Assembly (NCBI GenBank): GCA_002778785.1
Contig: PEZS01000008.1
Span: forward strand, 103,777 to 167,776
Length of the DNA stretch: 64,000 nt
DNA from: Bdellovibrionales bacterium CG10_big_fil_rev_8_21_14_0_10_45_34
Lineage (GTDB): Bacteria; Bdellovibrionota; Bdellovibrionia; Bdellovibrionales; 1-14-0-10-45-34
Direction of reading: 5' to 3'
In this document: positions 23,913 through 44,685 of the stretch, piece by piece
Layout: the number at the start of each line of letters is the position of its first letter
How positions within the stretch are numbered: position 1 is the stretch's first letter
Program-made: the position numbers and the translations under genes
The notes under the pieces: generated by a model
What the model was told of the DNA's origin: nothing
Databases searched by the model: none
The model's input: only the letters and a program-made list of their open reading frames with translations

Positions 23913-25016
23913 TTATCGGCGCTCTTTCAGCCCTCTAGGGCGACCATTTACAAAGTTGAAATCCGGATCGAAGGAGAGTTCAATGGTAAGCTGAGCCGCG
24001 TATCTTCTTTGCTCGTGCTGTCCGGGATATTGCCCTAGCTCAACGCCCCAGGTTGCTGCATCAATTTTAAACAATCCCATTTTTACTCCTAAACCGGCGG
24101 TATAATATCCCTGATGGAAGCCCCCTCTGACGTCAATAAAAGGAAGTGCAAACTCTATCCCCATATGCACTTTCTTTCCAAGCTGTTCATTGTAACGATT
24201 AATATTTTTAATATCGATTGAAGGCCTTATGTCTACCAACATGCTTTCAATCTCCAGCCCCATACCTGCAATCATTTCATCGCGCTGATTTGGCGGAGTG
24301 TTCGCGCCAGGCGAGGCCACAAACTTTGTCACGCCAACATCCTTCCAAACAAAACTGAATTTTGGACGAACACTTGTTGGCAGCTCAAACAAAAGCCCTA
24401 CGTCGGCGCCATAACCAACACCTTGTCGATTAACTTGCTCTCTTAAAGCTGTATCTGAAAGGGTTCCAAGGGTGTCCAAGCCCAAGGGCAGCTCAGCCCC
24501 AAATCGTGTGACACGTTTACCGACGACCCCAATGTAGGTCATAGGCAAAAGCTCGAATGAAAAACCCATGGCAAAACCGTAGTCATTAACAAGTCGCAAG
24601 TTAAGGTTCGGAAACGCTGGGTTTCCAAAATTAGCAGCGATATCAAAGCTATCATAAACAGCTAGGCCAAGATTCTTAGCGACAAAGGCGCTCTTGAATC
24701 CGCCACCCACCCAGGCATTTTTTCCGTAATATTGTCTGAGAGTATCGCTGATGCTCCCGCCGCTTTGCGTACTGCGAACATCTTCTATAATTTCTTGGCC
24801 ATTCGCAGCCAGCTGAGGATCAAAAATAACAAACTCAAACCCTTTAACTCGCGAAAGGGCCGCTGGATTGTAAAACAATGCATCGCGGTCTTGAGCAATT
24901 GTGGTGTAGGCGTTTCCCATTCCTAGCGCCCGAATAGATCTGTTGATCTCAGCAAGCTCGGCAGCAAATGCTCCCTCACCAAGAAGAACAGTTATCATGG
25001 CAACCAGCAATTTCAC
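23913..25016 (-). CDS. Outer-membrane protein, PorV/TraF-like family (paralogue 1)
   Basis: A 367-residue exported barrel. The signal peptide is MKLLVAMITVLLGEGAFA. The family motif follows: IRALGMGNAYTTIAQDRDALFYNPAALSRVKG, the pattern seen in PorV/PorQ, FadL-related and TraF_2 proteins. The rest alternates strands with glycine-rich turns, and the last strand is AQLTIELSFDPDF. It shares this motif with the products of 26009-27076 and 32542-33696. It follows the lipoprotein gene at 25027 by 10 nt and is probably co-transcribed. The exact function is unknown; a lipid or hydrophobic-substrate channel or a secretion-surface role is possible. Confidence 0.8.
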   Translation of the reverse strand: MKLLVAMITVLLGEGAFAAELAEINRSIRALGMGNAYTTIAQDRDALFYNPAALSRVKGFEFVIFDPQLAANGQEIIEDVRSTQSGGSISDTLRQYYGKNAWVGGGFKSAFVAKNLGLAVYDSFDIAANFGNPAFPNLNLRLVNDYGFAMGFSFELLPMTYIGVVGKRVTRFGAELPLGLDTLGTLSDTALREQVNRQGVGYGADVGLLFELPTSVRPKFSFVWKDVGVTKFVASPGANTPPNQRDEMIAGMGLEIESMLVDIRPSIDIKNINRYNEQLGKKVHMGIEFALPFIDVRGGFHQGYYTAGLGVKMGLFKIDAATWGVELGQYPGQHEQRRYAAQLTIELSFDPDFNFVNGRPRGLKERR

Positions 25017-26008: not shown

Positions 26009-27076
26009 TTAAAATCGAAACGAAAACTTTCCTATGAGCCTTCGTGACTCCCTCGCTTGCGCTGCTGTACCGATTTCTTCTCCGTATGTCGCCACTTGAA
26101 ACTGCATAAATTTCACAGCCATTTCTGCACCAAGAGTCCAATACCTTTGGTTCATGCCAGCTCTCAAAAAAACAAAGTCTCCGATGTTTAGCTCCATGCC
26201 CGCGTGCACCTTCTTCATCGAATCGGTCTCTTCGTAAGCTCCCATAGCATCTCGGTACTCCGCTCCAATTTGCATCCTCACGAGCGGGGACAAAATGGGA
26301 TTGATAGAAATTCCAAGGTCCAGAGTTTGCTTGATGTTTTGGGGACGCCTCGTGGTGTTGTGTAAAAAGCCAGATCCGGCATCAAGAGCCGTGTCACCTG
26401 CATCTCTTAGAACACCTGCCACAGAAGGCAAATACTCCCAAGGCCCAGTTAAAGTGAGTGCCGCATCACCTGCAATGCCGCCGCCTTCATGCACAAGATC
26501 AGAGATTTGTAGGTTTGTTGAGTCCGCCGGAAGCACTTCTCGAATCTCAGACCGATTGATAACTCTTCCGTTGAACCCCAGTTTGACCCGCCCATCCCAA
26601 AACCGAAAATTAAAGCCGGCAACTAGGGCGTAATCATTGAAATAGTTTAAGGTGTAAGTTTGCCCCGTCTCGTCGACTTCGGCGTCGTAGGATTGTTTTA
26701 CTAAGAAGCCCATGCCAAAGTTTGTGTTCACATAAGACGGAAACAACTGAAATTTTGCGTGATACGGATACCCTTGGTTCTCTCTAAGAGTGTTGAGGAG
26801 GCCCTGCACATCGGTTATCCCACCCGTATTCTGGTATACTCTCTCTGCCGCTCCCGCTGAAACATGAACTTCTGGATCGATCATCGTGAGTATCGGGCCT
26901 CTTAGGCGTCCAAGACCATTAGGATTTAACAGAAGTGAGGTTTCGTCGTTGACTGTGGCAATACCCACGCCGCCCATTCCCATCTGCCTGACACCGTTGT
27001 AAAATTCGTAACGTTCACCTGTATAGGCTGATGTCGCAAACAGCGACAAAAAAATGCTAAAAGAAGACAGTCTCAT
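26009..27076 (-). CDS. Outer-membrane protein, PorV/TraF-like family (paralogue 2)
   Basis: A 355-residue exported barrel with signal peptide MRLSSFSIFLSLFATSAYTG. The motif VRQMGMGGVGIATVNDETSLLLNPNGLGRLRG aligns with that of the 23913 gene. Strands continue to a classical outer-membrane terminus (RRLIGKFSFRF, ending in Phe). It is transcribed first in a barrel-lipoprotein-barrel string (26009, 25027, 23913), with a divergent promoter region of 174 bp shared with the lipoprotein at 27251. No catalytic motif was seen. Confidence 0.8.
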   Translation of the reverse strand: MRLSSFSIFLSLFATSAYTGERYEFYNGVRQMGMGGVGIATVNDETSLLLNPNGLGRLRGPILTMIDPEVHVSAGAAERVYQNTGGITDVQGLLNTLRENQGYPYHAKFQLFPSYVNTNFGMGFLVKQSYDAEVDETGQTYTLNYFNDYALVAGFNFRFWDGRVKLGFNGRVINRSEIREVLPADSTNLQISDLVHEGGGIAGDAALTLTGPWEYLPSVAGVLRDAGDTALDAGSGFLHNTTRRPQNIKQTLDLGISINPILSPLVRMQIGAEYRDAMGAYEETDSMKKVHAGMELNIGDFVFLRAGMNQRYWTLGAEMAVKFMQFQVATYGEEIGTAAQARESRRLIGKFSFRF

Positions 27077-28125: not shown

Positions 28126-29628
28126 CTATAACATCTTTCTGAGCTGCTCTTTAGTGAGTGGCGGATGGTACGGATTAAATTTTATTTTCTGGGGCACGAC
28201 CATTGTATCCGGTGCTTCGTGGTGCCTGCCAGGAAAGAAAACTTCAAACCCCGATTTATCTCTTAGTGCCATCACTTTTCCTAAGGCGTTTCTCGTCGTG
28301 TATTTATCAAAATAAGAGTTGAGGTCCTCGCCGAAGGCCGATGAAAGTTCCCGACGAAAAACAGCAGTGCCCACAGACTGAAAAATATATTTTTTGTAAT
28401 AATCTCCCAAAACGGATTTTAGAGATCGCCCCTTTGAATCGAACAAGCCAGCTAAAAACGAAATAAAATTTCGCCCTTCGGTATAGGACTGATACGAAGT
28501 GGTTCTAGCGTATGCTCCTCGCCTATCCAAATTTACCGGCTCCAAAATCCCCTCTTCAACAACCTCGTAATTGGCGTCTCTCCAGCTCGCTATGGCTTCA
28601 TCCATCCAACCGGCATTTCCGTCTTTCGGCATCATAGACCTTGCATGATACATATGAGAAATCTCGTGGGAAAGAGCCCAAAGTGAAGTCGCAGTAGCAC
28701 CGCAGTACTCCATTCCACCGCCACCTTCAGTCAGATAAATGAGCAGTTCCGCAAAGGGATACTCACCGTAAGCAGACTCGAGTTCGGCCATCATTTCGAG
28801 CGCATGTGAAAGTGCTTTGTCGGTCTCTCCTCCCACGGCCGCATACACCCTTACCAAGACGTCCCGACCATCAATGGAGCGATAAACTCCCATGGCTTCT
28901 TCGGGGAACGCACCCTTGGGAGCGATGTGGTAGTATATCGAACTTGACGTGAAGTAATCTGGGTAAGAAATCAAAAACTTATTAGGCGCCGCTTCCACCA
29001 AACTTCCGTTGGTGTAAATGACGTGCTCTCGCTTAAGATTTTCCAAAGAAACAAAGAATTCAATGGGATGGTGATCGTATTCAAGATTGCTCACCATGTA
29101 CTGTTCAAGAAACTGACGGTCCTCTAGGTCGCTAAAAAAGAAGGCATTGCGAACCGAAGCAGCATCTTCTCTAGCTAGATCGCTACCATGTTTATCAACG
29201 AGCTCCTCATCAAGATCAGAAAACTGGAGATTCTTAGTAGATTGCGTCTGTGCCGTTAGAGTGTGAACGCCCGGCCCCACATGCGTCGATAAATAACGAA
29301 TCCTTGTATTGGCATCTTGGGTTACACCAGCAATTGAATGGCTTAGAAATTCACTTTTTTCTCCATTAATAAAAACTCCTGAAATCCAGTTACCGCTGAA
29401 ATCAAAAACCGGGTGCCCTCCGTTTTTAACCTGAAACGAAATTGTACTGCTAACTCTAGAAGTTCGGGACTTACCATCATAAGTGATTTCATGGCGAGCA
29501 CTCAGTATATCTACAAACACCAGGTTTTTGCCCATCACCATTAAATCGGGTGGTGCATTTTCAAAATCACTCGAAGCAAAAAGACAGTTAGTAAAAACGA
29601 ATGTAAACAAAACCACGAAGCAATTCAT
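28126..29628 (-). CDS. M1-family-like zinc metallopeptidase, exported
   Basis: A 500-residue protein with an N-terminal signal peptide (MNCFVVLFTFVFTNCLFA), probably acting in the periplasm or at the surface. Residues 35-260 form the beta-rich N-domain of M1 peptidases. The exopeptidase-like motif is GGGMEY (303-308), and the zinc site is HEISH (321-325) with exactly 18 residues before the Glu of WMDE (E344), the classic gluzincin HExxH-X18-E. The usual C-terminal helical domain is short. It begins 26 nt after the DUF2063 gene and so appears to be the last gene of the MNIO operon. A role in trimming the exported modified peptides is possible but inferred from position only. Confidence 0.85.
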   Translation of the reverse strand: MNCFVVLFTFVFTNCLFASSDFENAPPDLMVMGKNLVFVDILSARHEITYDGKSRTSRVSSTISFQVKNGGHPVFDFSGNWISGVFINGEKSEFLSHSIAGVTQDANTRIRYLSTHVGPGVHTLTAQTQSTKNLQFSDLDEELVDKHGSDLAREDAASVRNAFFFSDLEDRQFLEQYMVSNLEYDHHPIEFFVSLENLKREHVIYTNGSLVEAAPNKFLISYPDYFTSSSIYYHIAPKGAFPEEAMGVYRSIDGRDVLVRVYAAVGGETDKALSHALEMMAELESAYGEYPFAELLIYLTEGGGGMEYCGATATSLWALSHEISHMYHARSMMPKDGNAGWMDEAIASWRDANYEVVEEGILEPVNLDRRGAYARTTSYQSYTEGRNFISFLAGLFDSKGRSLKSVLGDYYKKYIFQSVGTAVFRRELSSAFGEDLNSYFDKYTTRNALGKVMALRDKSGFEVFFPGRHHEAPDTMVVPQKIKFNPYHPPLTKEQLRKML

Positions 29629-29654
29629 CGTGCCCCCAAGCTATTATGCCGCCC

Positions 29655-30665
29655 CTACGGCCCTGCAATCGTAACAGCGCAAGCTCTCATCCAGCAAGGA
29701 AGTTCTTTTTTGAGTGCCGAAATTACCTCGTCTATGTAGCCCGAGTGGCAATCTGCTTTCGAACTGACGGTGTCTATCTGACTTTCTGATTCAAAAGAAT
29801 CCAGCCAGTCTTGGAGTGACTGATAGTTTTTTAGAACCTCTAGTAACTGGGCGCCACCACGAGACACTTTTAAAAAATAAGCCTGCCCCTCATAATCATA
29901 CGGGAATAGCCAAATTGGCTCATTTAAAGAAACCTCGGAAAGGCCAGCTTCAGCAAAGTGAACATTAGCAGAGGGAAAGGTAGACGAGTTCAACTTATCG
30001 GGGCCAATTGCAGGTTCTTCTGCCCTGGTTGCGTCGAGTGATACCTGCGCGACAAATGCGTCAGTTAAGAATAATTTTTTATCTGGCAAATTATTTTGAA
30101 ACGCATCAATATTTTTCGCTGACACACAAATCGCTGACTCCAGCGGCAAAGAAATAACTTGCTCTTCTGCTAGAACAAAACGCTTCATGACGCAACCTAG
30201 AGTGAGAATTCGATCTAAGGATCTCTCAATCAGAAGAATTTCTCTTTCATCCACGCTTGATCCAGACTTTTCAGTTTGCGCCCATTTCACAAAATCGTCT
30301 CTGACTCCGTCGATTCGCCATGCTCGCGATGCCTGCTGATATCCAAACTCTACTGTCAACTCTTTGAGCCTATCTTGTGAAAAAACCTTCGAGAAAACAG
30401 GAAACCGCTCAGGAAGCGTTTTCGAAAACACTCTTCGAATAGAGTTTCTGTAAACTCTTAAGCCAATGACTTCTTGTTCTGATTTCGTCATTTCTAAGAC
30501 TTTTGAGAAATCTTTACGAGCCGCTGAGTGTTTGCTGCTTCCAACACTGGCGCCTAAACCTGCAATTGAAACTGCATTTTTATCACGTAAGCAGACCTGA
30601 GACATAAACTTGCTTTGAAACTTTAAAAGGGCACTTGGTGGTTCGTTTTGATCTGTATTATTCAT
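29655..30665 (-). CDS. DUF2063-type partner of the MNIO enzyme (BufC/HvfC-like)
   Basis: A 336-residue cytoplasmic protein. The N-terminal domain follows the DUF2063 pattern: LLKFQSKFM, then GLRVYRNSIRRVFSKTLPERFPVFSKVF, FGYQQASRAWRIDGVRDDFVKWA. DUF2063 proteins are known to assist MNIO enzymes in peptide recognition or modification. The middle and C-terminal parts are more divergent, and an inserted Ser-rich stretch follows residue 31. It lies directly downstream of the MNIO gene (65 nt). The call is by pattern plus context; the similarity is moderate. Confidence 0.75.
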   Translation of the reverse strand: MNNTDQNEPPSALLKFQSKFMSQVCLRDKNAVSIAGLGASVGSSKHSAARKDFSKVLEMTKSEQEVIGLRVYRNSIRRVFSKTLPERFPVFSKVFSQDRLKELTVEFGYQQASRAWRIDGVRDDFVKWAQTEKSGSSVDEREILLIERSLDRILTLGCVMKRFVLAEEQVISLPLESAICVSAKNIDAFQNNLPDKKLFLTDAFVAQVSLDATRAEEPAIGPDKLNSSTFPSANVHFAEAGLSEVSLNEPIWLFPYDYEGQAYFLKVSRGGAQLLEVLKNYQSLQDWLDSFESESQIDTVSSKADCHSGYIDEVISALKKELPCWMRACAVTIAGP

Positions 30666-30730
30666 CTAAAATATTCATCCTCAGCCTTCTAAATGCGAGA
30701 TCTCTGACTTACTATTACATTACTTTGCAT

Positions 30731-31609
30731 CTACGGACTCCCCTCTGGCTGACTTGTGTGATTTTCATCCCTAGAAACCTTTCCCCTTAACATGCTAATT
30801 TGAGAGACAATCACATTGAGGTCAGGGAAGTCTGCGTCCCACTCCAAAATAGTAGATCTGGGGCCTACGTTTTCGGTAAACCAGTCAATAAGCTCCCAGG
30901 TTTCATTCGCCATAGGTTTTGCATGCGTGTCTAAAGCTCCCCACTCTTTCTCTTGAAAGCCTGCCGCATGTAACTGCCAAATACTGTGGCTGGGCAGTGA
31001 TCTAATCGCCGCTATGGGGTCAACATCAAAATTGATCCGCGAAACTATTAAGTTATTAATATCAAGCAATATCCCGCAACCCGTTTTCTTGCTTAACTCG
31101 GCAAGAAATTCTGCTTCGCTCATGTCAGACTCAGGCCTGATATAACTCGAAAGATTCTCAAATCCTACTGGGCGCTTTAGAAAGTTTTGAACGTAGTCTA
31201 CGCGGGAGCCTACCCACTCCAAATTTTCTTCTGTGTGAGGAAAGGGCAGTAATTCCTGGGTGTATGTTTCGCCATAACTTGTCCAACAAAGATGATCTGT
31301 AATCCACTGAGGACTGCAAAAATCTGCAAGTTCGCGGAGCCCTTGCAGGTATTCTCTATTCAGTGGATCTGTGCCTGCAATCGAAAGACTAACCCCATGT
31401 AACACCAGGGGCTTAAGTTCGCAAAGTCGCTCAATCATTTCTCTTCGGCGAGGAGCAACCGTTGCTTTACCTTCAATAACTGTTAAGTAATTTTCAGTCA
31501 GTAGTTCAAAAAAATCCAACTTCGACGGATCATCTACTATCTCGTCAAAATAAAACGGGCGGAAACCCATTCCCGCCCCTAGAAAAGGCATTTCTGGCTT
31601 AATAACCAA
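30731..31609 (-). CDS. MNIO family (DUF692) peptide-modifying iron oxygenase, BufB-like
   Basis: MNIO enzymes use a cluster of two or three irons and oxygen to modify Cys or other residues in ribosomal peptides. This 292-residue protein shows the TIM-barrel motifs LGAGMGFRPFYFDEI, FFELLTENY, LHGVSLSIAG (H71), ITDHLCWT (D105, H106), VGFENLSSYI (E151), LLDINNLIVSRIN (D183, N186), LHAAGF (H214), DTHAKP (D227, H229) and ILEWD (E256). Many relatives have HxAGH where this one has HAAGF, so one commonly seen His is Phe (residue 218). The TTG start has GGAGGG about 6 nt upstream. It is flanked by two precursor genes and the DUF2063 partner. Confidence 0.93.
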   Translation of the reverse strand: MVIKPEMPFLGAGMGFRPFYFDEIVDDPSKLDFFELLTENYLTVIEGKATVAPRRREMIERLCELKPLVLHGVSLSIAGTDPLNREYLQGLRELADFCSPQWITDHLCWTSYGETYTQELLPFPHTEENLEWVGSRVDYVQNFLKRPVGFENLSSYIRPESDMSEAEFLAELSKKTGCGILLDINNLIVSRINFDVDPIAAIRSLPSHSIWQLHAAGFQEKEWGALDTHAKPMANETWELIDWFTENVGPRSTILEWDADFPDLNVIVSQISMLRGKVSRDENHTSQPEGSP

Positions 31610-31670
31610 AAAAGTCCCTCCGTTACCAGATATCGGATATCTAATATCTCGTTTACCTAGTACCTATTGC

Positions 31671-31874
31671 TTATTCACTATCTTTGTCACCATGATCGCC
31701 GTGGTCACCATGATCGCCGTGGTCTTTATGATCGCAGTCTTCACCTTTACACTTGTGGGCTTCTTTCTTCGCTTTCTTTCCATGATTATTCGCATAGGAC
31801 ACGCTAGCCAGTGAACCGACTGTAAATCCGCCTAGCGCAAGTGTAACCAATAGAGCTTTCATCTTGTTTTCCAT
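31671..31874 (-). CDS. Putative MNIO precursor peptide 2 with CX4C and DHG repeat
   Basis: A 67-residue secreted peptide. ATG-31874 has GAGG 6 nt upstream; an in-frame GTG 12 nt earlier is less likely. Residues 1-28 form a signal peptide ending SYA. The mature part is Lys-rich, then has C42-KGED-C47, DHK and four DHG units (51-62). The signal peptide is near-identical in pattern to that of the peptide at 32019, while the tail differs. His/Asp/Cys richness suggests metal binding (inference). It lies 61 nt ahead of the MNIO gene, as BufA-type substrates do. Confidence 0.85.
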   Translation of the reverse strand: MENKMKALLVTLALGGFTVGSLASVSYANNHGKKAKKEAHKCKGEDCDHKDHGDHGDHGDHGDKDSE

Positions 31875-32018
31875 TTTATTCCTCACTTTGTTTTGGGCCG
31901 CTATTTGTAGCCTTTTTTATCTCTCCGCCGAAATGGCGCAAAATTTCTGTTATAACATTGAGCCTTTAACTTTGAACTAAACTATCCTGAAGTAGCTAGT
32001 TTTTCTCAATGTAAAAAA

Positions 32019-32222
32019 CTACTCGTGTTCACCGTCTTCGCCTCCGCAGCCTTCACTACCGCATTTCGGTTCCTTGTCAGAAGTCTTCTTCATAGTGTCT
32101 TTCTTTGAAGTCGACTGTTTATCTTCCTTTTTCTTCTCTGCCAAAGCCACTGACGATACAGATCCTGCAGTGAAACCTGCAAGCGCAGCAGTGATAATGG
32201 CTGCTTTAACTTTCGCGTCCAT
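32019..32222 (-). CDS. Putative MNIO precursor peptide 1 with CX4C (CGSEGCGG)
   Basis: A 67-residue secreted peptide, first in the MNIO operon. ATG-32222 has a very strong AGGAGGAGG. The signal peptide (KAAIITAALAGFTAGS, cleavage near VALA at 28) is followed by a Lys/Ser/Thr-rich spacer. The acidic Cys-containing tail is PKCGSEGCGGEDGEHE (C54, C59). CGSEGCGG recalls the EGKCG motifs of known MNIO substrates such as bufferins and HvfA. It has the same total length and signal-peptide pattern as the precursor at 31671, so the two are duplicates with diverged cores. Confidence 0.87.
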   Translation of the reverse strand: MDAKVKAAIITAALAGFTAGSVSSVALAEKKKEDKQSTSKKDTMKKTSDKEPKCGSEGCGGEDGEHE

Positions 32223-32226
32223 CTGA

Positions 32227-32249
32227 TTCCTCCTCCTAAACAATTTAGG
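32227..32249 (-). promoter_or_regulatory. Hairpin overlapping the precursor 1 ribosome-binding site
   Basis: On the minus strand CCTAAA and TTTAGG (32249-32235, 3-nt loop) form a 6-bp stem, and its 3' arm runs into the AGGAGGAGG ribosome-binding site (32237-32228). Folding could limit access to the site. Confidence 0.55.
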
Positions 32250-32278
32250 AAAAAAATTGGTAAAATAATTTTTACCAA
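32250..32278 (-). terminator. Attenuator-like hairpin in the MNIO operon leader
   Basis: On the minus strand TTGGTAAAA (32278-32270) pairs perfectly with TTTTACCAA (32265-32257) around a 4-nt loop, followed by seven T (32256-32250). The form is that of an intrinsic terminator, but it lies upstream of the first gene, so it may act as an attenuator. The stem is A/T-rich and therefore weaker than usual. Confidence 0.6.
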
Positions 32279-32283
32279 AGTAA

Positions 32284-32371
32284 GGAAGTGTCTTTGTTTA
32301 GACTCAGTACAATCTCTATTTAAAATCGGGTAAAACTTCCGAAGCGTAGCAGTCGAAATAAAGACACTCCC
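32284..32371 (-). repeat. Spaced inverted repeat in the MNIO operon leader
   Basis: 16-bp arms at 32284-32299 and 32356-32371 match at 14 of 16 positions (GTGTCTTT core), separated by 56 bp. They could close a large stem upstream of the attenuator-like hairpin or mark a protein-binding pair. No known riboswitch class is recognised. Confidence 0.55.
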
Positions 32372-32411
32372 TAGGACCTTTAAAATCATTCTCTTAAGTT
32401 TTTCGAAAGGG

Positions 32412-32541: not shown

Positions 32542-33696
32542 TTAAAAGTCGAGATTTAAACGAACCATATAAAAGCGGTTTTCTTTTTTCGCATCGGTCG
32601 TTCCCACTTCTTCTGCATAGGTTGATGCGTCAAGCCGAAACCACGACAACTGTGCCCCTAAACCAAAGGAAAAATAACCTTGCCCAAGTCCCACTGCCCA
32701 GCGTCCCTTCCACCAACTGAACACTTGCCAGTCTAGCTCGAAACCTGTGTGCATACCTTTTGTAAAAGTCCAGTACCTGTGCCCCATATCCCTCACGTCA
32801 AACATAAACCGAGTTTTAAAAATCCAAAGGTCCGGCAGGTCCCATTTTGTACCGACGTCAAAAACCCGGCCCAGCTTAGGAGGATTGCCTGAGGTTAGTT
32901 GGTTATAAAGCTTCATGTTTGTCGTGAAGCCGTAGTCCACCAAGTTCCTTCCAACGACGGAAAAAGTGGGGCGCGCATACTGAAGAAACGAAAAGAACCC
33001 GTCATCGGGTATATCTGGCGAGTAGGAAGAGCCTAAATCAATATCAAAAGTCATGCCCTCTCGAGCCTCCTGAGGTCTGAAGAACTCAGTATTATTGATC
33101 AGGTCAAGTGCAATAAGATCTTTACCAACGTATCCACGATAGACTGCTTTAGCTGATGCCCCGACGCTCAAGGTATCCTCTAAGAAGTTTTTCGCATACC
33201 CGTAGACTATGGTTGTATCCGAGTACGCACTCACATTTAGCTGAGGACCGCCCTGCCTATGAATACTGGTATTGACTGACAAATCTACAGGAACTATCCC
33301 AATTCCCCAGCCCGGCCGGACCCAAAACGCAGAAAGCAAAGCCGTTCTTATGCCAAAATGATTTCCGTAGTTTCTCTCTAGTAGATCATTGAGTGACTGC
33401 TCCTTATCTGTTGCAGCATTAGCGTCGGTAATTTCTTTTTGGAGAGTTAGAATATCTGGCATACCTGCGGCCTGAATACCAAAATTCAGCTGACCCTCTT
33501 TGAGTCTTGCAAGCATGGCGGGATTATAAAAAACAGCGTTATAATCATCGATATTGGAAAAAGTTCCTCCGGACGACATGGAACGCGGCGCTTGATATAG
33601 TTGGTGGATCTTAAAGTCTATTAACTCTGTATGGGCACTTTGATGACCAAGTAGTACCAAAACACTCAAGGACAACGCCAAAACTATATTCTTCAC
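32542..33696 (-). CDS. Outer-membrane protein, PorV/TraF-like family (paralogue 3)
   Basis: A 384-residue exported barrel with signal peptide MKNIVLALSLSVLVLLGHQSAHT. The motif PRSMSSGGTFSNIDDYNAVFYNPAMLARLKEG matches the two other paralogues at 23913 and 26009. The terminus (FYMVRLNLDF) ends in Phe as expected for BAM substrates. It is transcribed toward the MNIO operon on the same strand, but 320 bp and repeated elements lie between, so they are probably separate transcription units. Confidence 0.8.
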   Translation of the reverse strand: MKNIVLALSLSVLVLLGHQSAHTELIDFKIHQLYQAPRSMSSGGTFSNIDDYNAVFYNPAMLARLKEGQLNFGIQAAGMPDILTLQKEITDANAATDKEQSLNDLLERNYGNHFGIRTALLSAFWVRPGWGIGIVPVDLSVNTSIHRQGGPQLNVSAYSDTTIVYGYAKNFLEDTLSVGASAKAVYRGYVGKDLIALDLINNTEFFRPQEAREGMTFDIDLGSSYSPDIPDDGFFSFLQYARPTFSVVGRNLVDYGFTTNMKLYNQLTSGNPPKLGRVFDVGTKWDLPDLWIFKTRFMFDVRDMGHRYWTFTKGMHTGFELDWQVFSWWKGRWAVGLGQGYFSFGLGAQLSWFRLDASTYAEEVGTTDAKKENRFYMVRLNLDF

Positions 33697-39937: not shown

Positions 39938-40825
39938 TTAGAAATAAAAACGGAATAGGAGATTGGCGTAGGCGTGGCTGAAATTCATACTGCGCGCGTC
40001 ACCTGCGTTTGTTAAGGCAGAGCTACCACTTTCTGCTGTTCCGGTTAACGCTGTCCCTGACCTAGCATGATTGAAGCTCGTAAAATTCATGTAGCGATAA
40101 CCAAGACTAAATAGTGCCGCTACGTTATCAACGAACAAGAACTCCGTACCAAGTGCTCCAAAAGTACTGACAGTGCTCGAGGTGGCCTCTTCTGTGTAGT
40201 TGACCACTCCCGGGTAGGTTGCAAGACCCTGAGCTGTTAGAGTGTACTCCGTGAGAACTCGCGCTTGTGACAGCCCAGCCCCAAATGAGAAAATTAGCCG
40301 AAACTCACTTTCTTTTATCAAAAAGATTTCTAAGGCTGCAGTCGGTCCCCAAATAAGCAGCTGCGAGTTAATGCTCATCAACTCGTTGCCTAGAGAGTCA
40401 GTTGCACTCAGTTGGGTGATTTTTTTAGGATACAAAAGCTCTAACCCAAAACGAAGCTGGCCTGCGCTGCGTGATAGCATAAAGCCAAACTCGGCGCCGT
40501 ACCCATTTTGTAAGGGAGCGCTAACAACGGTTTGACTGCCGCTCGTGTTCTCGATGGCGCTAACGCTACTAGGAAGATAAAAATAGGAACCTCCGAAGTA
40601 AGCACCAAAGGATTTTTCTTCAAATCGAAACACCCGCGAGAACCCATTCTCGGGGAGCAACACAAAAACAAAGAAAGCACTCGCCCAAAGCGCACTCACC
40701 CACTTGCCACTTGATAAACCTCTCGATGTATCATTTGAACTGCGCAAATGACAGGCGCCGGAAGCTGTAAAACCAATACCCAATTGATGAAGAAGAGAGC
40801 GCGGACTACTTAAAATTGGTGTCAT
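39938..40825 (-). CDS. Outer-membrane beta-barrel protein
   Basis: No family recognised. The frame codes for 295 residues; the signal core is VSALWASAFFVFVLL at about 43-57, so the true start may lie inside. The mature part alternates strands (KSFGAYFGGSYFYL, RFGLELLYPKK, LIFSFGAGLS, LFSLGYRYMNF) and ends HAYANLLFRFYF, an ideal BAM signal. The first ATG overlaps the stop of the giant lipoprotein gene by 4 nt, so the two are translationally coupled and may work together. Confidence 0.75.
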   Translation of the reverse strand: MTPILSSPRSLLHQLGIGFTASGACHLRSSNDTSRGLSSGKWVSALWASAFFVFVLLPENGFSRVFRFEEKSFGAYFGGSYFYLPSSVSAIENTSGSQTVVSAPLQNGYGAEFGFMLSRSAGQLRFGLELLYPKKITQLSATDSLGNELMSINSQLLIWGPTAALEIFLIKESEFRLIFSFGAGLSQARVLTEYTLTAQGLATYPGVVNYTEEATSSTVSTFGALGTEFLFVDNVAALFSLGYRYMNFTSFNHARSGTALTGTAESGSSALTNAGDARSMNFSHAYANLLFRFYF

Positions 40826-43800
40826 CTCTTCATATTGTATGTCGCTTCGGATTCAAGAATAACATGCGTTCTAAAAAACTCGACCTCTTCTATAAAGCTT
40901 TTCTGAGATAAAGATTCTAGGAAGCTTGCCGAATTTGGGGCAAACTGCCCTTTCTCGACCCATGACCAGAACAATCTGGTAACAAAGCCTCGCGTTGCCG
41001 GATCTGAAAGTGCGGCACTAACTAGACCGGCTGTTCGATCTAACGGATGTTCTGTTAGAAATGCTCCAAAATTCACAGAACTTTCTCTACCGGACTTAAG
41101 GGACTTAGTAACATTCGCCCTCAAAGGTGGAATAAGTGCCGTGTCTAAACTTCCCAGCGCGAGCGAAACTGATTTTAAACAATCTTCTCTATTGCTTAAA
41201 ATTTGGTTGATGCTCAAACGAGTAGCTTGAACCTCACGACTGGTCGCATTCCAAAGCGGTACAAGAACCTCAGGAAGCATTTGACGATCGCGACCAGACA
41301 TATCATCTACAAAAAAATCAAAGACTTGGTCAAAGACTTCACGGTCAGAGGCGATAAATTGGATAACTTTGATTGCACTAGTGGGCTTGTCGACAAATCT
41401 CCCCAAAATTGCAACATACTGATAGAACCGGGTAACGAACTGATTCCACAAATGCGGAGATTCCTTCAGTTTCCACAGTTTGATGAAGGCACTATCAAAG
41501 AGACTCGTGCCATTTTTAGTTTCTACCAACTGCGTGATCAAATCCCTTAGTTCTGCGACCGATTTATCATCAAGCGACATAAGAAACTGAAAGAGTGAAC
41601 CCAAAACAGGCTCCAGCACTCCCCGCTCCTTCAACTGATAAAGTACCCACGACACCCGCGCAAAGAAACCCCAATATTGCGGCCTATGAACCAAATACAG
41701 TTGATTCTTCATGGGATCAGTCGAGCTCCGCATTTCTTTTGGCGTCGAGAGCAACATTCCTTGGTACATTCTTTGAAAGAATCGAAGATCCTTATTAGCT
41801 GCCATATCCTCGAGCACAAACATATTTCCGTTCATGTTTCGGAATCGAAAGTACTTATCACCATCGGGCAAACTCGATTGGTGCATCATATTTGTATAAA
41901 GCTCGCCGGCTTTACCAAAAGCGCCTAGAAGATTCATTGTCGAAACAAGATTGCTGCTCTTAGCAATATTGATCTGAAAATGTATTCCCACTTCGTGAAC
42001 TGTGTAGAGTTCGAGGGGGAGCTTCACTTTAAACCGTGAGTTATTCACCAAAATATCGAGTTGATCCAGAGAATTGGCAAGTCGCAAAATCGGCTTCGAA
42101 TTAGCATCCGGCCAGTAGGCAAAAGCATTAACTTGAGAAATGCTACGATCGAGATATCGGATAAGATCAAAGTCTTTCAGATCAATTCTAAAACCCTCTC
42201 TGTCTAAACTTTCTCGCGATATAAGTCCTTGGACTGCTTTAACTAGCTCTTCGAGGTTTTGATACCTCAACAACGATCTAAAAAATTCTTTCACTTCGCT
42301 TCTGTAGCCTACTTCACTCAACCTTTTATAAACACCTTCATCGTAAAAGTAGTTGTCTCCACGCTCTGAGAAAGCTCGAAAAGCTTTCTCAAAAGTTGCT
42401 TCTCCGCCACGGATGCCATTCATTTTCATCACCCGTAGCGCGTTCTCCTTAAGTTTTCGTTTTTCGCGAACTGATATCTGAAATGCACTCGTAAAATCAA
42501 ATGGTGATGTTTGTTTTGTTTGCAAAGACAGAACTTCAGTAACAACACGCGGAAAATCGCGATCCGAAACAGCATCCAAAAAACACTGGCCCATTGTCTC
42601 TCGCTCGCTGCGAGGAGCACGCAGCAAGACATCTGTTACACTCTGAAATAGCTCTCCTTGCTCGGCCCAATGCTTGAAAAACTGTTGCCACCTCTTGCTT
42701 TGTTCAGAAGTTTGAAAGAGGGTCAAAAGCTCCTGACTGGCTGACTGAATTTCTGACTTGAGTGACAAGACCCAACGAATGGAATCGGTGAGAGGTTGCC
42801 ACAGTGACTCTGAAGAAACAGTAGCTAGTAAACTCTTTAGTGTAACGCCGCTTAAATGATCTTTTGTGCAATCATAAAGATTTTGAATACCCTTTGCACT
42901 ATTTAAAGTTATCTCTTTATTCAAACAACTTTGACCGTGGACACGACTTTCAGACCACTCTTTTATTCGGCGCAAAAACTCAGGGTCCGGCTGACGTCTG
43001 TCTACTAAAAGCTTTTCGCTAAGCGCCCATTCGTCCTTTCGACTTTCAAATAAAGACAAGGCAAACCTAAAAATCTTCTCGGCATCTCCCGACGCAATGA
43101 GAGGCTCCAAAGTAACTAGCAACGATTCAAACTGGTCATGCGAGATAAACCAGCCCACCAACCCAACCCAGGCACTAAACAGTTCTTCATCTTTAGCGGT
43201 TTCTGAAAGAATAGCCATCATGGGTAGCTCTTGATGCCAAAGAGACATGTCGTAAGCCCACTCAACTAGGTCCATCGGTGAGACACCTGAATCTTTGTAT
43301 GACGCCAGTATGCGAACCATATTTGCCGAAATTGTCTTATGGTTGCCGTCTAAAAAATCTTGTAGCTCTGCGCGCAAACTCGACCAATAGTTGCCCTTTG
43401 AGCCGTGCAAAGTTTCAAAACGTGCCCACCATTGGCTAAATCTTTGAACCTCAGGCTCCTTAACATGAATGGTTGTTGCGTCTAAAAACTCAGCCAAAAT
43501 TCCACTGTCGAACAAGGATTGTACGAGTGCCTGAGAAGCTAACCATCCATTTTGGCCAACAAACTCGATCAACGAATCAGTAAGACCGTTTTTTTCGAGC
43601 CATAACCAGAGATCTTCGAGCATCCCTCCTGATTGAGGAGTCACAACATGTGAAGACAGTTTTACAAGAGTCTCTATCTCAACCTTAGAGTTGCCCCAGT
43701 CGCAGGCTTCAATAACTCCGCTCAGAAGCCATGGGAACTCCCCGCTAAGTGCTGAGCGAAGATTCCCTAGTCTCGTTCTATGCCTGAGAAACTCCGTAAC

Positions 43801-44685
43801 TGTCTTTAAGGGATGCGCGATTTTTAGTGAAACGCCATTGCCTGACACGCATAAGAGTGGCTTTCTTAAGCGCTGAATCACGTTTGATGTCACATCGGCA
43901 AAAGTTAAGCCGGTCGTCTCATCCCGAACGAGTAATGCCCCTAGGGTTCCTGCAAAGAGAGTCGGCTGTTTGGCAACTATTCGATAAAGCTCTGCAAGCT
44001 CTCCTTTTGGCAACTGAACTGCTCTTTCGACAAATGAACTTTTAATAAACGAATCAAGCGATGATAAAAAGCTCTCTAAATTGCTAGCAAACTGCACATC
44101 GCCTGTTGCCAACTCCGAAAGGCTTTTCACTGAACTATAAACCTCGGGCGAGCCCAGCCACACCGAAAGAATTCTAACGAATTCTTTAAAGTCGTTTTGT
44201 TCAACAAGTTCCAAAAAGCCGCTTTTAAAGAGTTTTACAAGATTTCTTCCGGGTTCCTGATCGAGCAAAAAGCCAAACAGACGAAGAGATTCATGTGCTG
44301 TTTTCTGTTTAAGAAGAATTTCGGAAAGTGAAAAAGCTCTCTTTATTTCCCCCACCTCTTCTAACTTCTTGAAATGAGAAACCAACTTGAGCAGATTTTC
44401 ATCTGACCCCATAACATGTTCGTTATAGGTGTCTACGACAACTCGCCACTGTAAGTCGTCCATGTCTTTAAGTATTTTAACCATCGGATCAAGGCGCTTC
44501 TGTTCACCGCTGACACATTCGGTGAGATCAATAACCTGATTCTTGCTCAGCCTACGAATATCAAATCGAAGTGAACGACAGGCTTCGAGGGCCTGGTCGT
44601 TAAAGTGGCTTTTTGGTGTTTCGTTGTTTGGACTGCATCCCCCGAACGAAAGCCCCAAAGAGAATGCTAGGAGCAACCAAACCAC
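40822..44685 (-). CDS. Very large helical lipoprotein
   Basis: No family recognised. The product has 1287 residues. The N-terminus (VWLLLAFSLGLSFGGC) is a lipoprotein signal with Cys at 17. From GTG-44685 it lacks a basic n-region, whereas the in-frame codons just upstream encode IIKR, so a rare upstream start is conceivable. The mature protein appears almost entirely helical, with repeated aromatic-leucine helices that suggest a HEAT/TPR-like solenoid, but no repeat consensus was derived. It is the first gene of a pair with the barrel at 39938 (4-nt overlap). Large lipoproteins of this kind are common in predatory bacteria; a structural envelope role is only a guess. Confidence 0.75.
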   Translation of the reverse strand: MVWLLLAFSLGLSFGGCSPNNETPKSHFNDQALEACRSLRFDIRRLSKNQVIDLTECVSGEQKRLDPMVKILKDMDDLQWRVVVDTYNEHVMGSDENLLKLVSHFKKLEEVGEIKRAFSLSEILLKQKTAHESLRLFGFLLDQEPGRNLVKLFKSGFLELVEQNDFKEFVRILSVWLGSPEVYSSVKSLSELATGDVQFASNLESFLSSLDSFIKSSFVERAVQLPKGELAELYRIVAKQPTLFAGTLGALLVRDETTGLTFADVTSNVIQRLRKPLLCVSGNGVSLKIAHPLKTVTEFLRHRTRLGNLRSALSGEFPWLLSGVIEACDWGNSKVEIETLVKLSSHVVTPQSGGMLEDLWLWLEKNGLTDSLIEFVGQNGWLASQALVQSLFDSGILAEFLDATTIHVKEPEVQRFSQWWARFETLHGSKGNYWSSLRAELQDFLDGNHKTISANMVRILASYKDSGVSPMDLVEWAYDMSLWHQELPMMAILSETAKDEELFSAWVGLVGWFISHDQFESLLVTLEPLIASGDAEKIFRFALSLFESRKDEWALSEKLLVDRRQPDPEFLRRIKEWSESRVHGQSCLNKEITLNSAKGIQNLYDCTKDHLSGVTLKSLLATVSSESLWQPLTDSIRWVLSLKSEIQSASQELLTLFQTSEQSKRWQQFFKHWAEQGELFQSVTDVLLRAPRSERETMGQCFLDAVSDRDFPRVVTEVLSLQTKQTSPFDFTSAFQISVREKRKLKENALRVMKMNGIRGGEATFEKAFRAFSERGDNYFYDEGVYKRLSEVGYRSEVKEFFRSLLRYQNLEELVKAVQGLISRESLDREGFRIDLKDFDLIRYLDRSISQVNAFAYWPDANSKPILRLANSLDQLDILVNNSRFKVKLPLELYTVHEVGIHFQINIAKSSNLVSTMNLLGAFGKAGELYTNMMHQSSLPDGDKYFRFRNMNGNMFVLEDMAANKDLRFFQRMYQGMLLSTPKEMRSSTDPMKNQLYLVHRPQYWGFFARVSWVLYQLKERGVLEPVLGSLFQFLMSLDDKSVAELRDLITQLVETKNGTSLFDSAFIKLWKLKESPHLWNQFVTRFYQYVAILGRFVDKPTSAIKVIQFIASDREVFDQVFDFFVDDMSGRDRQMLPEVLVPLWNATSREVQATRLSINQILSNREDCLKSVSLALGSLDTALIPPLRANVTKSLKSGRESSVNFGAFLTEHPLDRTAGLVSAALSDPATRGFVTRLFWSWVEKGQFAPNSASFLESLSQKSFIEEVEFFRTHVILESEATYNMKR

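Follow-up and report, generated by a model that had tools for sequence, protein, structure and literature searches.

On the minus strand of the window, as we call the whole 64,000-nucleotide stretch of Bdellovibrionales DNA that was analysed, two small exported peptides, P1 and P2, precede an MNIO enzyme, a partner protein and a peptidase. Does this cluster encode a bufferin-like peptide-modification system and, if so, do its precursors and its peptidase point to a new product, as the original prediction proposed? Characterised members of the MNIO-PME1 clusters bind copper. More than 24,000 MNIO-PME1 loci are known, and conversion of Cys to 5-thiooxazole by MNIO enzymes has been reported for bufferin 1, oxazolin, fontiphorin and gonophorin (PMC13097082). 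This class is known and large, and the operon of the window appears to be a divergent variant that falls below curated cut-offs. With a probability of roughly three in four, we read it as a divergent MNIO-PME1 system of the bufferin/oxazolin or 'captophorin' type, whose modified peptides would buffer periplasmic copper. The bufferin/HvfA-like assignment, which had been predicted and which the analysis bears out, is supported by the agreement of the gene order, the exported precursors with Cys motifs, the conserved MNIO ligands and the DUF2063-type partner. It is weakened because the MNIO and the partner score under curated cut-offs, and because both Cys of P2 are followed by charged residues, an arrangement that FonBC does not process (PMC13097082).

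Gene layout of the locus

The genome measures 3.06 Mb, and its relatives were taken at the order and phylum level, the genomes searched including none of the same family. All five predicted open reading frames, including the two 67-residue exported peptides, are present on one strand (Table 1). Precursors, MNIO and DUF2063-type partner (32222-29655, minus strand) follow one another in the canonical bufABC order and, in related operons across the phylum, the precursors likewise lie directly upstream of the MNIO. The gaps from P1 through P2, MNIO and partner to the peptidase are 144, 61, 65 and 26 nt. The last three are as first described, but the first had been given as 132 nt, a value that disagrees with the 67-residue length of P2 since it needs a 71-residue product with a GTG start, whereas 67 residues need the ATG. 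Ribosome-binding sequences support the start codons of P1 (ATG; aggaggagg), P2 (ATG; gagg) and the MNIO (TTG; ggaggg).

Table 1 Features of the operon, in window coordinates
Feature	Position	Strand	Evidence
P1 precursor, 67 aa	32019..32222	-	ORF and Shine-Dalgarno; precursor HMM E 7e-6; HvfA model E 2.9e-4, below cut-off
P2 precursor, 67 aa	31671..31874	-	ORF and Shine-Dalgarno; precursor HMM E 2e-10; P1 paralogue
18-nt tandem repeat coding the P2 His/Asp tail	31686..31739	-	three in-register copies, the third 72% alike
MNIO enzyme (PF05114), 292 aa, TTG start; proposed Cys-oxidising	30731..31609	-	259.9 bits
PME1-like partner, 336 aa	29655..30665	-	DUF2063 E 3e-5; HvfC model E 0.0036; profile-profile
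Exported M1-like zinc metallopeptidase, 500 aa	28126..29628	-	GGMEYCGAT, HEISH-x18-E

Promoter matches were at chance level (8 versus 7.4 expected) and an Rfam search matched no family. A weak 15-nt repeat lies 5' of P1, and a 22-nt inverted repeat (32283-32304 / 32351-32372; 86% complementary, 46-nt spacer) is found upstream of the same gene. Both flanks of the operon hold minus-strand genes for outer-membrane-barrel-like proteins, three paralogues of 21-25% identity (23913-25016, 26009-27076 and 32542-33696). Elsewhere in the window, a 1287-residue ORF (40822-44685) and its neighbour (39938-40825) are without a Pfam match at E 0.01.

The precursor peptides

P1 combines a Sec-type leader (MDAKVKAAIITAALAGFTAGSVSSVALA) with the core EPKCG-SEGCG, in the same register as EGKCG-EGKCG, and P2 combines the leader MENKMKALLVTLALGGFTVGSLASVSYA with the core AHKCK-GEDCD, followed by a DHGDHGDHGDHGD tail. 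Each peptide has a single Cys pair (CxxxxC) with Lys before Cys, and this C-x4-C spacing is that of EGKCG-EGKCG in oxazolin and fontiphorin (PMC13097082). The residues that follow the Cys are Gly and Gly in P1, and Lys and Asp in P2. Furthermore, P2 has the highest His fraction among the precursors compared (17%, the next being 8%). The description 'Cys-rich', which the original prediction had used for the known systems, is a poor fit to peptides with two Cys each.

The two precursors had been described as unlike, a view that does not survive comparison: judging by their sequences, the two are paralogous and their leaders are similar. They share 43% identity overall and 15 of 28 leader residues, P1 is the second-best match of P2 in a genome-wide search, and their global alignment score of 91, against 29 ± 9 in shuffles, was reached in none of 2000 trials. 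They are also of the family type. When the 568 ORFs of the window were compared with an HMM built from 65 MNIO-linked precursors of other genomes, with the window genome left out, only P1 and P2 matched. Neither the 2-Cys size nor the tandem arrangement is unique, as precursors with two Cys are also seen at related loci (L032, L045, L116 and L127), as are tandem precursors (L001, L111, L133 and L060), and bufferin clusters with tandem precursors have already been reported (PMC12452194). Related precursors, too, include some in which Lys, Asp or Glu comes after Cys.

A homologue search with P1 across 368 phylum genomes gave no match elsewhere. P1 and P2 matched neither DUF2282 nor the Buf_6/12Cys domain, the domains of BufA1/BufA2 precursors, and the HvfA equivalog NF050188 scored 21.4 bits, below its 95-bit cut-off. 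We rejected P2 as an HxsA4 (His-Xaa-Ser) peptide, because the NCBIfam match (E 2.7e-5, 25 bits against a cut-off of 55) involves only the low-complexity His tail.

Two known types of operon serve for comparison. Like HvfABC/oxazolin, fontiphorin and gonophorin (the EGKCG, or Lys-Cys, captophorins), it pairs an exported precursor with a Lys-Cys-Gly core with an MNIO and a probable DUF2063 partner in the same gene order; in contrast to the HvfABC/oxazolin type, it has one Cys pair where that type has repeats, as well as two precursors and no DoxX. It shares with the BufA2/BufB bufferins (Buf_6/12Cys, Cys-Lys) the tandem precursors, the Cys-Lys of P2 and an MNIO for which BufB is the best model, but those bufferins have 6 or 12 Cys rather than two, and their BufA2 model is matched by neither peptide. 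Distinctive to the operon are its two minimal 2-Cys paralogous substrates, the different residues after their Cys and the His/Asp-rich tail on P2.

Across the phylum, 124 of the 368 genomes searched, about a third, carry an MNIO, and the precursors are diverse. In an Opitutia MAG (L098), the precursor upstream of the MNIO consists of near-perfect GCKGKD repeats with 10 Cys.

The MNIO enzyme, its partner and the proposed pathway

The identity of the MNIO was correctly predicted (PF05114, 260 bits). Matched by motif, the residues at the reported site-3 ligands of HvfB, N175, D242 and H244 (PMC13419390), are all kept, as are the other conserved His/Asp/Glu that were checked and the catalytic Asp of FonB (PMC13097082). 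The enzyme is also the most deviant of about 77 compared, with 13 changes across 62 conserved columns, where the median is 3 and the next most deviant enzyme has 8, including His118 to Gln at a position that is 99% His in the other MNIOs compared; its activity or product could therefore differ. Its terminal branch in the MNIO tree is 1.74 against a median of 0.5. The tree groups it with repeat-type and not Buf2-type enzymes, a placement with weak forks and a long branch that we did not use as evidence. Its best NCBIfam model, the BufB equivalog NF050167, gives 265.6 bits, under the cut-off of 310, and the HvfB equivalog NF003818 gives 193.4 bits, under the cut-off of 360; both MNIO paralogues in the same genome score over the BufB cut-off. 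At the FonB-numbered selectivity positions the enzyme has Arg15, Pro in place of R16 (the second Arg) and Ala in place of Phe250; among 82 MNIOs, 26 have Pro at position 16 and 16 have Ala at the Phe250 site. When the whole collection was scanned for a closely related operon, only five distant MNIOs came up.

The DUF2063-type assignment of the partner is supported by profile-profile comparison with 33 partner proteins of related operons (88%, E 2.9e-6), whereas its own DUF2063 match, N-terminal at about residues 51-128, scores 24.7 bits and is thus below the Pfam gathering score of 27.2. The HvfC model scored 17 against a cut-off of 142. The partner is very probably a divergent DUF2063-type PME1 protein. 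An RRE domain is expected after the DUF2063-like domain; the order of strands and helices is only suggestive of one, and an AlphaFold2 model made from five divergent rows had a pLDDT of 41.6, too low to be of use. In searches with the partner, none of 139 further genomes from the order yielded a homologue at E 1e-3, and plasmids gave no match.

The chemistry, the role of copper, leader recognition and export of the modified form are all proposed here from characterised relatives. In the cytoplasm, the partner would recognise a leader common to P1 and P2 and hand the peptides to the MNIO; preliminary evidence for such partner-leader binding exists for bufferin 1 (PMC12452194). A mixed-valent di-iron centre in the MNIO would oxidise both Cys in every K-C-x4-C core, with 5-thiooxazoles on both peptides as the most likely outcome. 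The modified peptides would then be exported via Sec, with removal of the leader by an ordinary signal peptidase, and the mature peptides would chelate and so buffer copper in the periplasm, the His-rich tail of P2 being a possible second metal-binding segment. The downstream M1-like peptidase would be a separate exported enzyme, adjacent by chance.

Alternatively, the divergent MNIO might have a changed pocket chemistry and install something other than a 5-thiooxazole, or modify only one of the two peptides. Its deviation and long branch, the different residues after the Cys of P1 and P2 and the Ala at the equivalent of FonB Phe250 would all fit such a change. However, all of the ligands and the catalytic Asp that were checked are kept, Ala at this site is common in the phylum, and charged residues after Cys are seen in related precursors, and we consider this alternative unlikely. 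With the arguments for new chemistry from an added peptidase (see below) and from unlike precursors both failing, enzyme divergence is the sole positive argument that remains, and a weak one; new product chemistry is possible. It is doubtful that an accelerated MNIO and partner have specialised on CG/CG and CK/CD substrates so as to yield two different modified metal ligands, of which one would carry a second, His-rich site, serving a metal or a stress beyond the reach of the genome's two canonical bufferin-type operons. In a single operon, two paralogous one-pair precursors with different residues after Cys and a strongly diverged MNIO provide a small natural experiment on the substrate-selectivity rules that have been proposed for FonB.

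The two further canonical MNIO operons of the genome are of the BufA2 type and of a KCADGSCG type with a DoxX-like gene. The former (L001, G000:C1:105103-108888) encodes a tandem pair of BufA2-type precursors, one of which has a lipobox-like Cys, together with an MNIO that exceeds the BufB cut-off and an HvfC-like partner; the BufA2 model scores 66.2 bits there (cut-off 60). The latter (L002, G000:C11:410553-414344) encodes a precursor with three KCADGSCG repeats, an MNIO and a partner, with DoxX-like and ECF-sigma-like genes, assigned by eye, on the opposite strand. It is like the operon of the window in its K-C-x4-C motif, its similar leader and the order of MNIO and partner, and differs in that its one precursor holds three repeats, that the DoxX-like and ECF-sigma-like genes lie close by and that its MNIO passes the BufB cut-off; the two MNIOs are 41% identical.

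A decaying operon, that is, a third and redundant copy under relaxed constraint with no present activity, could account for the long MNIO branch, the divergent partner and the minimal 2-Cys precursors in a genome with two other MNIO operons, but is very unlikely given that the frames are all open, the Shine-Dalgarno sequences are strong, each catalytic residue checked is kept and two precursors with similar leaders are retained.

The downstream M1-like peptidase

The peptidase of the window has intact GGMEYCGAT and HExxH-x18-E motifs, which are common to its family. The M1-type assignment made originally applies at the level of this family: PF01433 is matched by 20 of 24 members (E up to 0.1, best 9.3e-9), whereas the window protein itself scores under the Pfam cut-off. 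The family profile also matches aminopeptidase N (5e-8), and on these sequence comparisons the family is M1-like. The window peptidase and its family share GGME and HExxH-x18-E with M1 metallopeptidases such as aminopeptidase N, LTA4H and the cold-active aminopeptidase, and differ from them in being short (440-500 aa) exported proteins of weak sequence similarity that are untied to MNIO.

The original prediction counted this enzyme as an added part of the system. If it were a true component, it might trim P1 and P2 after export, which would make this a bufferin-like pathway whose peptides mature by proteolysis into a new product. The 26-nt gap on the same strand and the predicted export of both peptidase and peptides are compatible with this, and M1 includes aminopeptidases able to trim an exposed N-terminus. 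However, homologues occur in 105 of the 368 phylum genomes, often in several copies, and some of these genomes (G012, G024, G006, G094 and G086) are free of MNIO. No MNIO was found in the short flanks of 48 peptidase homologue loci, and the peptidase was absent from 81 other MNIO loci, where most flanks span about 1.5 to 5 kb. Where the two share a contig, among the matches listed, they lie tens of kb apart as judged by eye, and in the material examined the peptidase adjoins an MNIO nowhere but at the window locus. We give the trimming role little credence, and a maturation enzyme was rejected as a conserved feature of such operons. Because the peptidase is present without MNIO elsewhere and absent from the other MNIO loci examined, the most plausible reading is that of a neighbour outside the proposed MNIO-PME1 system. 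From the 26-nt gap it is likely to be co-transcribed with the operon. The peptidases form a phylum-wide family that is usually located away from MNIO; in phylum genomes of family f12, for example G223, G224, G237 and G241, up to four scored peptidase matches each were found among the matches listed.
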